From: Halodesulfurarchaeum formicicum
GTDB taxonomy: Archaea; Halobacteriota; Halobacteria; Halobacteriales; Halobacteriaceae
Direction: 5' to 3'
NCBI RefSeq assembly: GCF_001886955.1
Contig: NZ_CP016804.1
Coordinates: 930,001-994,000 of the forward strand
Length of the DNA: 64,000 bases
Part shown: positions 14,298 to 49,473 of the stretch, piece after piece
Position numbering within the stretch: position 1 is the stretch's first letter
Layout of the letters: every line of letters begins with the position of its first letter
Position numbers and translations under genes: made by a program
The notes under the pieces: model-generated
Database searches by the model: none
Told to the model about the DNA's origin: nothing
Seen by the model: only the letters and a program-made list of their open reading frames with translations

Positions 14298-14683
14298 GGT
14301 TCGTCCTGAAGCGTGTAGGTCCCGTCCCGCGGGCGATGGCCGATTTGTCCGTTCTCCTGGAGGTCGATGAGGGCTGTTTCGAGCTGGGACTCCAATTCGT
14401 CGGTGACTGTTTCGAGAAGTTCCTCCCAGGAGAGTGGGCCGTTCGAACCGAGGGCCTGGAGCACCGTTTCCCGGACGTTACCCCTGGGGTTAGCGTCCGA
14501 TGATTGGGTTGAATCGGGCTCGGTATCACCGAACCCGCGACGGCCCGCCTGAACCATGGTTCGGACGAATTCAGATTGAGTCATCCCCAGCTCGTCGGCG
14601 TGGTCGGCCCACGCTGATTTTTGGTAGGCCGGAACGTAGGTGGTGACGGCTGATCGGTCGGTCTCTTGCTCGGAATTGGACAT
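14294..14683 (-). CDS. DUF5805-family protein with ribbon-helix-helix-like N-terminus
   Basis: This 129-residue protein opens with an N-terminal segment (TTYVPAYQKSAWADHADELG, then MTQSEFVRTMVQAGR) that looks like a CopG-type ribbon-helix-helix motif. It ends with a small winged-helix-like domain (LQALGSNGPLSWEELLETV ... LQENGQIGHRPRDGTYTL). The pattern matches what I recall as DUF5805, often found beside a recombinase gene in haloarchaea. The four-base overlap with the integrase gene suggests that it controls or assists that enzyme. A TATA-like CCTATAAG lies about 27 bases before the ATG on the minus strand. DNA binding is inferred. Confidence 0.75.
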   Translation of the reverse strand: MSNSEQETDRSAVTTYVPAYQKSAWADHADELGMTQSEFVRTMVQAGRRGFGDTEPDSTQSSDANPRGNVRETVLQALGSNGPLSWEELLETVTDELESQLETALIDLQENGQIGHRPRDGTYTLQDEP

Positions 14684-15696
14684 GGTCGGGGATTTGCCTC
14701 CCTGCCCCTTATAGGTTGCAGGAATCGAAATAAACTATCTTATTTGGAGCGGGGGCATTAGAAATGGGGCCTGTTGTTATGGTATATTTGTATTACTAAA
14801 GTCTATTTGCCGGTTGCACTCTAAGTTTCTAAATATAAATGTAGATGGAATCGAACTCGAGGTTGCATCAAAAGAGATTGTTAACGAGTTGCATCTCGTT
14901 TCTTGTCGGTCCATGTCTGTGGAGTCGAGCTGATCTTGTCCAGGAAACTATCTAATTTGGGCTTTCGTTACTGTGTCCGACTCGGGCTCCTCGGCAGGTA
15001 AATTTGGATCCGCAAACGAAACTGGGTTTGAAGACTGAGTTCACAGTTGGTCAGACGTCGCTGAACTGGCTTGTTGGCCAGGGTCGAATTCTCACCTCAT
15101 CGTATCCGCGTGTTCAAGATGACCCGTAGACGGGGGTCCATGCGGCTCCTTTTCGACCGTTTCTCGGTAGGTCTGATGCCTGAGACTTCAAGGTTGGATG
15201 TGTATGGTGTGGTCCCCCTGTGAATCGTTACGGACTTCTTCGAATCCCTGCCCGATCCGGTAGGATTTGCCTCGCTGAACTGTCGCCCGACCGGGCATTT
15301 GGAAAACCTAGTGCCGGAAACGGCTGAACTCGATTCTGCCGGTTCTGTTCGAATCGGGCTTCTCCGGTGGCTACTTTCTGATTGGGTGCTGGGTTTCGGG
15401 TACCAGCGTGATCGAGAAGCGTGAAATAAACCTCATACCGCTATATCATTGCCGGGGCCCGAATCTGCTCCTGAACAGGGATCGGTGATCTCGTCACCGG
15501 GGACTTTGCGAGAATAGTGGCAGGACGTTCGAAATTATATAGTTTCAGAAAACCTGGTTGGTCCAATTCACATGAGCGAATATTTGGCACTTCCCATGTA
15601 GGTGGTCATTGCGGTTTTACTCCGGGTTTCCGCCAGTCTCGACTACATCTATATAGAAACCACACGACTTATAGTCGGTGGGTGAAACCGCTTCGT
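14684..15696. other. Long AT-richer intergenic region without genes
   Basis: About one kilobase separates the divergent DUF5805 and PhoU-like genes and contains no convincing coding frame on either strand. It is visibly richer in A and T than its surroundings. It contains a hairpin AACGAG/CTCGTT (14883-14888 and 14895-14900), an 8-bp direct repeat GTTGCATC (14862-14869 and 14888-14895), and a hairpin CGGTGA/TCACCG (15483-15488 and 15494-15499). Both neighbouring promoters lie at its edges. It could hold a non-coding RNA or be decayed mobile DNA. Confidence 0.5.
15669..15674 (+). promoter_or_regulatory. TATA-like box of the PhoU-family gene
   Basis: TTATAG at 15669-15674 is centred about 25 bases before the ATG at 15697, the geometry expected for a leaderless haloarchaeal transcript starting at the start codon. 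This position also argues against the longer frame that begins at 15517. Confidence 0.55.
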
Positions 15697-47155: not shown

Positions 47156-47203
47156 GCCGAACCCGTCACATCTTTATTCGGTTCCGTCGAATGCCCGATT
47201 GCA

Positions 47204-47304
47204 GTCCCGTGGTGTAGTGGCCAATCATATGGGCCTTTGGACTCTCGTGGAATTCCGCGGGGGGAAGACAGCCCATGACGGCGGTTCGAATCCGCCCGGG
47301 ACTA
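47204..47304 (+). tRNA. tRNA-Gln (anticodon UUG) with intron
   Basis: The acceptor stem AGTCCCG (47204-47210) pairs with CGGGACT (47297-47303), with discriminator A at 47304. The anticodon stem TGGGC/GCCCA encloses CTTTGG, giving anticodon TTG. It is interrupted after position 37 by an insert of about 29 bases before the A of position 38, the standard archaeal intron site cut by the splicing endonuclease. An intron in tRNA-Gln(UUG) is known in haloarchaea. The T loop GTTCGAAT is present. The AT-richer cassette begins about 90 bases downstream. Confidence 0.93.
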
Positions 47305-47393
47305 TACTAACAGGTGACCTGGGTAAGTCGTAAATGTGGACTACAATTTCCTCCGTCGGGGTTTCACACGGATTTAGAGGGGGCTACTAATCC

Positions 47394-48080
47394 ATGCCAC
47401 CAATATTTGCATACGGTAGTTTAATCCTCCCCACAAGTCTCGTATCGCGGTTTGAGGATCTTGACACGTCAATAGATGACGTATATCAAGGAAATACTGA
47501 CAAGAACGTTAGTATAGACGCGTTGGAAGAATGGGAAAAACGGGCAGACAGAATTCACTATGTTCCGGCGAAGATATGGGGATTTCGACGATACTATTCA
47601 CTTGAATCACCCCGGGGCGGAACCATGTTGGAGGTTGTCCGAACGGACGATCCAAACGATTGGATCAACGGAGTTCTAATATTTGGTTTGACCGAGGAAG
47701 AACAAACCCAAGTGAAAATGACAGAGTCAGTGTACGAATTCGCTGATGTTCGAGATCCGAAATTGGAATTTTATGTCGATGATGTTACGAACGTGGATCT
47801 GACTGCTATCGATCGGATCCAGCTATTCTCAAAATTTGACACTGGGGATCAAATAGCTGCTACACTTCCACGAAACAAGACATATCATAGTAGAATAATT
47901 ACTGGAATAGAGATGATTGATGATATGTATGACACCGACCTCGCCAAGCAGTTTTACGAGGACTTCCGGGAATCAACCTTTGAAACTGCCTATGACTCGG
48001 AGGACCCTAGTGAATTTAATACTGTCAAGGAAAATGACCGTATAATGGGTGATCCTGATTGGTCAGTGCGAGGGTTGTAA
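47394..48080 (+). CDS. Gamma-glutamylcyclotransferase-fold protein in an AT-rich cassette
   Basis: The 228-residue protein starts MPPIFAYGSLI, the YGSL turn of the gamma-glutamylcyclotransferase (GGCT/AIG2/ChaC) fold. The matching second half is visible at NGVLIFGLTEEEQTQVKMTESVYEF, where Glu111 lies at the position of the catalytic glutamate. Family enzymes release 5-oxoproline from gamma-glutamyl amines, but the distant sequence and the long extra C-terminus make another substrate likely. Codon use is rich in A/T-ending codons, unlike all neighbours, which suggests horizontal transfer. The next gene overlaps its end by 22 bases. Confidence 0.75.
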   Translation: MPPIFAYGSLILPTSLVSRFEDLDTSIDDVYQGNTDKNVSIDALEEWEKRADRIHYVPAKIWGFRRYYSLESPRGGTMLEVVRTDDPNDWINGVLIFGLTEEEQTQVKMTESVYEFADVRDPKLEFYVDDVTNVDLTAIDRIQLFSKFDTGDQIAATLPRNKTYHSRIITGIEMIDDMYDTDLAKQFYEDFRESTFETAYDSEDPSEFNTVKENDRIMGDPDWSVRGL

Positions 48081-49300
48081 GCAAGACGATTTCCGATTTT
48101 GAAGACTCCAGCTTTGAGGACGGTGATAAATTCCGATATGCGGTGATTGTTCCGGAATTGTTGCTCTCTGAACTCGACAATACGAGCGAATATGAGTACG
48201 TCAAATTAACTCCTCAAGGGTCGAAAACAGGAGGGACAGTAGCGCAAATAATTACATTCAGTAGCGAACACGACGCTGAGAATTTTTCCACAGATGGGCT
48301 CTATTGGTCCTGTATACGAACCAAACTTCAAAAAGAAATCGGCCTTACTGTTGAGAATACTGACGCGCCAACCGTTGAAATTCAGGAAGTGGAAACGAAT
48401 ACGATAGATAACCTCCGCGTGCACCGAGATTCGGCTTGGGAGAGTGAAACTCGTGATATAACCACGGATGGTCTCGCCGGGTACATATCTGCAGAAGACA
48501 TGACGAATATGGAAGAATTAAAAGAGGGGAGCATCTGTGAACTCGTCAATCCCGAAAACGGTGCGCGTTTGCAGTTACCAGTCGAGACGTACTATCACAA
48601 GAACCGGAATGAGGGAACTATTCGACTGAATGGAAGTGCTCGCAAACTCCTTCAAGTGAAATCCAAAGACGAAGGGGACAACGATAGTGTTCGGTTACGC
48701 ATTCCAACTGAAACAACTCCGATTGCTGGTTTTTCCCATAAAATCTATAATAGGATTGGCCGTTGGTTTGTAGATTACAGTTATGCCTATTTCCGGGTTC
48801 TCTCAGGGTATGATCGAGATGAGGGCCGAAATCTGGTCCGACTAAACGAAGATGGCATGAAAAGGCTCGGGATTGAAGAAAACGATCGTGTGATCTTATC
48901 CTGGAGAGGGGATGATCTAAAACGACGAAATGTACGATGTCAGTCGGCGTGGGAGGAAGATGGAGCACTCGAACCGAGTGAGTCGACTGAAGATTCATTT
49001 GGTGAGGACCAATCCCTCTCAATACGCATTCCGAGCACAGAACGAGACAAATTGAATATTAGTGTTGGAGATGTGATAAAAATCCGACGCGATATGCAAT
49101 ATCAAGCCGGCAAACAAGTTGCACTATCAGCGTTCGGTATTTTGGGCGTGATTATTGGGACCAATCAGTTGATAAATATGATCTTCGATACGGTATCATT
49201 GGCGTATGTTGGAACGTCTCTTCTCTCAATAATGCTCCTCTCGGTGGTAACTGTCCGGTTGATAATGAGCCCGATTAGACAGAAGTGCCGAGTCCCGTGA
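48059..49300 (+). CDS. Membrane-anchored protein with three tandem double-psi beta-barrel-like repeats
   Basis: The 413-residue product has three repeats of about 85-110 residues (about 24-113, 137-215 and 257-345). Each has two halves resembling the Cdc48/VAT N-domain half-barrels: in repeat 3, RNLVRLNEDGMKRLGIEEND and SLSIRIPSTERDKLNISVGD; in repeat 2, GTIRLNGSARKLLQV. Two membrane helices follow (about 354-372 and 380-402) and there is no AAA+ domain. The TTG start at 48059 overlaps the previous gene by 22 bases, and no better in-frame start is seen. AT-rich codon use matches its partner gene. The fold assignment is my own reading and the function is unknown. Confidence 0.65.
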   Translation: MVSARVVSKTISDFEDSSFEDGDKFRYAVIVPELLLSELDNTSEYEYVKLTPQGSKTGGTVAQIITFSSEHDAENFSTDGLYWSCIRTKLQKEIGLTVENTDAPTVEIQEVETNTIDNLRVHRDSAWESETRDITTDGLAGYISAEDMTNMEELKEGSICELVNPENGARLQLPVETYYHKNRNEGTIRLNGSARKLLQVKSKDEGDNDSVRLRIPTETTPIAGFSHKIYNRIGRWFVDYSYAYFRVLSGYDRDEGRNLVRLNEDGMKRLGIEENDRVILSWRGDDLKRRNVRCQSAWEEDGALEPSESTEDSFGEDQSLSIRIPSTERDKLNISVGDVIKIRRDMQYQAGKQVALSAFGILGVIIGTNQLINMIFDTVSLAYVGTSLLSIMLLSVVTVRLIMSPIRQKCRVP

Positions 49301-49473
49301 TGACTAATTTGACCCTGCCAGTTGTCCATTAAGCCTCCACGTAACAAACCTGTCGGCCGGCTCAACGAAATCCGAACGTATAGGTGCAATCGTCCCGATT
49401 TTATCACTACCTACGTGACCGCTCGCCCGATCGCGACGACCTGGCCAACCAGTCGGAAGCCAACACAGGACTC

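Follow-up and report, generated by a model that had tools for sequence, protein, structure and literature searches.

Immediately downstream of a tRNA-Gln gene, the haloarchaeon Halodesulfurarchaeum formicicum carries a cassette of two overlapping genes, which we describe here from a 64,000-nucleotide stretch of its genome (the window, positions 930001-994000 of one 2,085,946-base contig; the genome is called G000 below, and its nearest congener G012). The first gene encodes P1, a protein modelled with a gamma-glutamylcyclotransferase (GGCT) fold, and the second P2, a predicted membrane protein whose model has three double-psi barrels, the third close to the N domain of CDC48/p97. With high confidence, we regard the two as a real, conserved functional pair. 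They are two known folds repeatedly joined in an archaeal module of which we found no description: the first-pass annotation, made from the sequence alone, knew of no system with this pairing, and the pairing is likewise absent from the best-ranked matches of our literature search, which left out most subscription papers. The nearest published case that we found (accessible part of PMC2588565) comes from amidoligase neighbourhoods, where an AIG2-family cyclotransferase occurs next to a protein of the carboxylate-amine ligase type; there too the cyclotransferase is encoded in a conserved neighbourhood, but its partner is of the ligase type and not a barrel-bearing membrane protein. The module unites a cyclotransferase-fold family unseen by Pfam models with a CDC48-N-like protein devoid of an ATPase; it is a small system in which the possible role of gamma-glutamyl chemistry at the membrane of archaea can be put to the test.

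The linkage of the two genes was followed through a first census of 392 genomes of the order. Single-sequence searches found P1 in 6 and P2 in 11 of them. Profile searches raised P1 to 15 genomes, the copy in G098 being a short, weak match (E 3.1e-4), and matched P2 in 290; most of the latter were set aside as CDC48-type ATPases, with frames of at least about 700 amino acids in most matches listed. The P2-type set consequently comprises the 11 strong matches and the divergent proteins of G013, G118 and G210, a few short frames remaining among the matches set aside. Both families are present in eight genomes (G000, G012, G351, G288, G043, G258, G118 and G210), and in all eight they are adjacent; the co-occurrence gives a Fisher p of 1.4e-9, for P1 in 15 and P2-type in 14 genomes that are treated as independent though related. 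The same adjacent pair was met in Halobellus rarus, in a scan of named genomes, and outside the order in G484, where relatives of P1 and P2 lie one base apart. The latter came from a phylum scan of 196 genomes with alignment A4 (P0001, the P1 of the window, and 13 relatives, leaving out G167, G098 and G484), which matched four genomes: G000, G012, G484 and, weakly, G399, whose match was rejected by eye as an ordinary short GGCT-like protein. Within the order of G484, 1/53 genomes matched, namely G484 itself. The G484 pair (L125 2434-6035) has as neighbours a proteasomal AAA ATPase (PF16450, PF00004) and a helix-turn-helix protein, an arrangement seen on a single contig that may be due to chance.

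P1 precedes P2 on one strand, overlapping it or one base apart, in eight of the ten pairs; the genes converge in G043 and G258. The P1 and P2 trees both unite G000, G012, G288, G351 and H. rarus. Deeper branches of the P1 tree are poorly supported, and G043 and G258 have different partners in the two trees, so that re-pairing is possible. One might think of two unrelated genes that travel together by chance, since each gene is also found alone, their orientation varies and the trees place G043 and G258 differently. Adjacency in every one of the eight order genomes that hold both, and again in a distant lineage, speaks against such a coincidence, which we regard as very improbable.

The place of P1 in the GGCT superfamily was assigned from fold and motifs. 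Its AlphaFold2 model (mean local confidence, pLDDT, 67.5; predicted TM-score, pTM, 0.73) retrieved AIG2-like, ChaC/ChaC2, GGCT and GGACT structures as top Foldseek rows with modest TM-scores, and VIA-align gave Z 9.6 against 2i5t (root-mean-square deviation, rmsd, 3.4; 132 aligned) and Z 9.6 to 9.3 against human GGCT and YkqA. Weaker structural matches (Z 4.3 to 6.1) were to Sulfolobus SSO1725 and SSO1986 and to a chain of a Cmr-beta complex. According to the accessible part of PMC7022552, enzymes with the GGCT fold share a YGSL motif and a catalytic Glu, and ChaC2 has conserved Tyr residues. In P1, Gly8, Ser9, Leu10, Glu111, Tyr114, Tyr127 and Tyr164 are invariant throughout the 14 rows of A4, whereas Tyr7 is kept in 13 (Ile in G258), hence a full YGSL in 13/14; the counterpart of Glu111 is also invariant in 12/12 rows of alignment A6, which takes in G484. 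Glu111 is the likely counterpart of Glu98, Glu82 and Glu83 in known enzymes, matched by motif order and not by superposition, and the three invariant Tyr may, from their order, correspond to ChaC2 Tyr87, 109 and 144. The GGCT fold with Glu at the catalytic position, as proposed in the first-pass annotation, is thereby upheld by Foldseek, VIA and conservation alike, and P1 is a probable active cyclotransferase as far as model and motifs can tell.

P0001 has no match in Pfam, NCBIfam or PADLOC (the last down to E 10), none of the 14 A4 members matches the GGCT models of Pfam, and the first P1 profile, when run against the sequences of solved structures, returned three rows (best E 0.1), none convincing, which is why the assignment rests on fold search and motifs. 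Single A4 members touch four other Pfam families (best 4.4e-4, one member, Peptidase_M17_N_1), and for a lone relative from G025 a ChaC-like model of NCBIfam gives E 0.001, far under the cut-off. Compared with the superfamily at large (human GGCT, GGACT, ChaC2, AIG2-like proteins, Pyrococcus PH0828), P1 is alike in fold, YGSL, catalytic-position Glu and, apparently, the order of conserved Tyr residues, and it differs in escaping Pfam and NCBIfam, in an extra segment near residues 33-58 in the close P1 clade and in having a triple-barrel membrane protein as partner. Hydropathy found no hydrophobic stretch above threshold in any of 15 P1 proteins.

Such an enzyme could simply serve thiol metabolism, P1 degrading gamma-glutamylcysteine, the principal low-molecular-weight thiol in haloarchaea, to 5-oxoproline and cysteine under P2 as a membrane regulator. 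Gamma-glutamylcysteine is reported in several haloarchaea (accessible part of PMC7278568), GGCT-fold enzymes use gamma-glutamyl compounds (PMC7022552, likewise in part), and in genus g45 the lone P1 lies near an FtsZ-like gene in 4/4 genomes (G137, G167, G341 and G098, among the matches listed), as a settled chromosomal gene would. Housekeeping thiol catabolism should, however, be general, and P1 is patchy (15/392), with a copy in G098 that is a short fragment; nor does this role give any reason for a triple-barrel membrane partner or for the pair in G484 outside the order. We consider it rather unlikely.

PF02359 (CDC48_N) matches the whole of P0002, the P2 of the window, at 8.3e-10, with one stretch at E 1 and three only at E 10, and the family is matched by 11/11 members of the P2 alignment A1 at E 1. 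The AlphaFold2 model (pLDDT 75.1, pTM 0.73) shows three barrels followed by two C-terminal helices. Barrel 3, run alone, superimposes on the double-psi barrels of CDC48/VCP with VIA Z up to 14.5 (rmsd 1.6, 86 aligned); a profile comparison shows that barrels 2 and 3 resemble each other (hhalign probability 89.9, pairwise E 1.7e-6), and barrel 1, whose sequence likeness is weak (hhalign probability 1.4), was assigned from the order of strands in the model. By hydropathy, 13 of 16 P2-type proteins have two hydrophobic stretches at the C-terminus and no more, the exceptions being G118 and G210 with one above threshold and G484 with several. The three barrel-like repeats of the first-pass annotation therefore stand in the model, but its tail-anchored C-terminus becomes a two-helix hairpin instead of a single anchor. 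Barrel 3 resembles the CDC48/p97 N-terminal barrel in both sequence and structure, whereas P2 departs from CDC48/p97 in its three tandem barrels (in the model), its membrane hairpin and the lack of an AAA ATPase domain, none being matched in P0002 by Pfam to E 10 and only the hairpin following barrel 3.

A MazE_antitoxin match in P2 (25.0 bits, cut-off 24.7; residues 318-345), shared by 7/11 A1 members at E 1, could together with the small size and overlap of the genes suggest a toxin-antitoxin or toxin-immunity pair. The matched residues fall in the second half of the fuller CDC48-N-like barrel 3, and the partner has a GGCT fold and is not MazF, in contrast to MazE/MazF. Moreover, P1 occurs alone in 7/15 genomes and the P2-type gene likewise in 7/15; because each gene also stands alone, this explanation is quite improbable, and the toxin-antitoxin role entertained in the first-pass annotation is unsupported.

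Taken together, the simplest reading that we infer is that CDC48-N-like barrels form a scaffold at the membrane and hold a GGCT-type enzyme there. The two genes would form one accessory module, in which P2 is held in the cytoplasmic membrane by its C-terminal hairpin with the three barrels presumably facing the cytoplasm; the barrels, like p97 N domains with their adaptors, may bind a peptide or a partner protein, and they would bring P1 to the membrane. There the YGSL loop of P1 could hold a gamma-glutamyl group with Glu111 as acid/base, and P1 would cleave a gamma-glutamyl amide by cyclisation to 5-oxoproline, the target being a small molecule or a modified membrane-side protein. Because of its rarity, foreign composition and mosaicism, the trait may be under variable selection, in conflict between cells or genetic elements or in surface variation, rather than in housekeeping. 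This chain as a whole we hold tentatively, with somewhat less than even confidence.

Several observations weigh against it. The P1 model is of modest confidence, Glu111 was placed by motif and order only, and a gamma-glutamyl substrate is presumed by analogy with the superfamily alone. The P2 of G043 (L021 9641-10951) is ended by an in-frame TAG inside the second C-terminal helix. Dispersal of the genes is a further point: P1 is found without P2 in 7/15 order genomes (G025, G098, G137, G167, G192, G300 and G341), and P2-type genes without P1 in 7/15 (G122, G246, G249, G354, G088, G013 and G023), so neither gene strictly needs the other. Of the P2-type genes, that of G023 and a second copy each in G088 and in G013 came from a scan of 136 genomes with a second P2 profile, run on these and seven more. 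Near the seven lone P1 genes neither P2 profile found a match (the G098 fragment gave no open reading frame in the local scan), and no A7-type P2 appeared anywhere in these seven genomes, in a scan lacking a positive control of its own. In G122, G246 and G249, furthermore, P2 has a conserved convergent GNAT as neighbour instead of P1; the three GNATs are 48-57% identical, two of them Pfam-confirmed (both of those scanned). Finally, dN/dS values of 0.15 and 0.21 in the cassette indicate purifying, not diversifying, selection.

Besides these three GNAT genes (L025 10720-11307, L027 10741-11079 and L028 10423-10956), there is another GNAT in G354, on the other side of P2. By eye, the gene ahead of P2 is lysA-like in G122 and dapF-like in G249. 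The exchange of partners could hint at a new archaeal conflict or protein-modification system, in which membrane-held barrels capture a target for a partner enzyme to edit, GGCT stripping gamma-glutamyl groups and GNAT adding acyl or aminoacyl groups in other lineages; the half exchanged between genomes, enzyme and outer barrels, would then be the specificity region. We regard this as doubtful.

Defence against viruses or other elements must also be weighed, with barrels sensing an invader component and P1 as an effector acting on a gamma-glutamyl metabolite, by modifying or depleting it; the cassette is indeed rare, foreign and recombining, and in its small size, patchiness and composition it resembles mobile two-gene defence or toxin-antitoxin modules. 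We compared 119 neighbour proteins from 15 loci (script-called, four per side where available) with PADLOC, giving 27 families at 1e-5, among them IetA, TRIP13, DndA/SspA, mad3, mad8 and Csa3. The IetA, TRIP13 and DndA/SspA matches we take to be generic AAA or cysteine-desulfurase matches. Among ten hand-chosen neighbours resolved singly, the restriction-type and PLD-type matches belong to a plasmid island of G088 (restriction-type protein, PLD-like protein, DUF4145 and integrase), where gene 2 stands without gene 1; in the chromosome of G088, 573 bases separate a divergent P2 relative from an MvaI/BcnI endonuclease (L130 136-912, 1486-2403). Some 1.8 kb away from the pair of G118 there is a nuclease-like match (SNc+LTD, 9.2e-22).

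Against a defence role, neither P0001 nor P0002 matches PADLOC at E 10, and no catalogued defence protein was matched, the sole toxin-antitoxin-type match being the partial MazE explained by barrel 3. Of ten pair-locus neighbours scanned with Pfam, three had no match and seven proved metabolic, regulatory or DUF proteins (DeoC, two helix-turn-helix proteins, a response regulator, DUF63, an acyl-CoA dehydrogenase and an FAD oxidoreductase). Eight window neighbours likewise fall into housekeeping or transport (short-chain dehydrogenase, suf genes, sulfatase, GtrA, MscS and Na+/H+ antiporter), and defence-type neighbours lie mostly beside P1-less P2, in one genome. The neighbours thus suggest defence where P2 stands alone, but only faintly where it is paired, and the search for defence genes next door, to which the first-pass annotation had looked, gave little; a defence or competition role stays conceivable by inference, yet as an account of the cassette we judge defence unlikely on balance. 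As for mobile elements, plasmids yielded two P2 relatives, on a Haloarcula marina plasmid and on Halobacterium hubeiense pSTJ001, both annotated as hypothetical proteins, and no relative of P0001 or of the G210 P1 or P2. Viral contigs held no relative of P0002, P0001 or G484 P1, phages none of P0002 or G484 P2 (P2 queries only), and Foldseek against viral models gave nothing for P2 at E 0.001 or better.

The coordinates of the cassette and its parts are listed in Table 1. Its extent, its gene overlap (22 nt) and its foreign composition agree with the first-pass annotation. GC falls from about 0.62-0.65 to about 0.45 across the two genes, and their GC contents at third codon positions (GC3; 0.419 and 0.449) are the two lowest among 53 window genes of at least 100 amino acids called by our own script (median 0.774; next lowest 0.66). 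Beyond the window, cassette GC lies below both 3-kb flanks in 5/6 other pair loci (H. rarus and G484 left out) and on one side only in G288; AT-richness is a trend across pair loci, extreme only in the genus of the window and in G210. Upstream of the tRNA lie sufC-sufB-sufD (Pfam ABC_tran, SUFBD_core), and downstream of gene 2 a sulfatase at 49384 (PF00884). The intron-bearing tRNA-Gln is likewise supported, the Rfam model placing an insertion inside the anticodon loop; ARAGORN gave no tRNA at 47203-47304, and the Gln identity was read from the TTG anticodon, independently of any tool.

Table 1. Features of the two-gene cassette and its borders (window coordinates).
Feature	Position	Strand	Evidence or remark
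tRNA-Gln gene, intron in anticodon loop	47203..47304	+	Rfam RF00005, 50.7 bits; left edge of cassette and of divergent block
Leader, tRNA to gene 1	47305..47393	no strand	Differs between the two congeners (base-by-base alignment)
Divergent block, G000 vs G012 (leader, gene 1, first ~165 residues of gene 2)	47306..48553	no strand	212/1316 differences over 47305-48620
Gene 1 (P1, P0001, 228 aa), GGCT-fold, predicted cyclotransferase	47394..48080	+	Fold searches; invariant GSL, Glu111, three Tyr
YGSL motif of GGCT-fold enzymes, codons 7-10	47412..47423	+	Alignment A4; motif named in PMC7022552 (accessible part)
Glu at catalytic position, codon 111	47724..47726	+	Invariant in 14/14 rows of A4 and 12/12 of A6, P0001 counted
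Gene 2 (P2, P0002, 413 aa, TTG start), three double-psi beta barrels and two C-terminal hydrophobic helices	48059..49300	+	Pfam CDC48_N, AlphaFold2 model, VIA, hydropathy
Barrel 1, residues about 1-125	48059..48433	+	Strand order of model; sequence likeness to other barrels weak
Barrel 2, residues about 126-222	48434..48724	+	Model; resembles barrel 3
Near-identical block, G000 vs G012 (rest of gene 2 and gap before sulfatase)	48554..49364	no strand	5/763 differences over 48621-49383
Barrel 3, residues about 240-350, closest to CDC48/VCP N-terminal double-psi beta barrel	48776..49108	+	Pfam, structure match
C-terminal hairpin of two hydrophobic helices (residues 346-411)	49094..49291	+	Model, hydropathy

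Comparison with the congeners indicates that this site is variable and that the cassette is itself a mosaic. G012 is colinear with G000 over 20 kb at 92.8%, and the flanks differ by 5% (434/8222; 180/4056 upstream and 252/4017 downstream), the tRNA at 0/102 positions. From the tRNA to about 48,553, the start of a long identical run by which the end of the block was set, divergence rises to 16%, the first difference standing at 47306, two bases beyond the tRNA; thereafter it drops to 0.7%. By gene, 141/754 positions differ in the leader and gene 1, 71/562 in the first part of gene 2 and 4/680 in the rest of it. Both blocks depart from the flanks (Fisher p 7e-38 for the divergent and 1.4e-11 for the near-identical block, in tests that treat sites as independent and with block edges picked after inspection). 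The gene 1 proteins are 82% identical, with a synonymous divergence (dS) of 0.64 against 0.14-0.30 in seven flanking genes. Such mosaic divergence between congeners points to recombination of the cassette with foreign alleles, and gives an archaeal example, beside a tRNA, of a cassette made of two halves that differ in history. When other close relatives are compared, P2 is less conserved over its first 187 residues than over the remainder in 10/10 pairs, only slightly so in most.

A third genome of the genus, G180 (72% complete), has no P1 or P2 match. On a 5.5-kb contig (L113, C122) it shows sufD and the tRNA-Gln, after which come a glycosyltransferase, a protein weakly resembling sulfatases and what by eye is an oxidoreductase; the site after this tRNA is therefore variable within the genus, and the tRNA-Gln seems to border a region that varies and may be related to the cell surface. 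Since G180 also differs in the genes further downstream, it does not reveal the precise empty site. A homologue of its glycosyltransferase lies about 170 kb away in G000 (66%). A relative lacking the cassette at this tRNA, which the first-pass annotation had thought worth looking for, thus exists, and neither outcome that it had named as fatal came about: the genes do recur together elsewhere, side by side, and the locus is not common across the genus.

How the cassette arrived is less clear. Even with up to 3 mismatches allowed, no second copy of the tRNA 3' end was found in the 64-kb window, and no integrase by Pfam among the eight flanking window proteins (four per side), which leaves classical tRNA-directed integration unsupported. 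The earlier statement that no tRNA repeat stands on the right flank accordingly holds for the 3' end, but a 12-nt near-repeat of the tRNA 5' end (47203-47214) does lie at the right edge (49291-49302), at the end of gene 2. It is coding and also present in G012, and 5/300 random draws of 120-nt windows match as well (draws near the site being skipped yet counted), so it is weak. Several genomes of the family, e.g., G056, G095, G039 and G117, show the tRNA-Gln match split into halves that adjoin or almost do, as would be expected of a shorter or absent intron, and the presence of the intron seems to vary within the family. Elsewhere in the window, a second, milder GC dip (0.52) occurs at about 14300-15500, where few convincing genes are seen.

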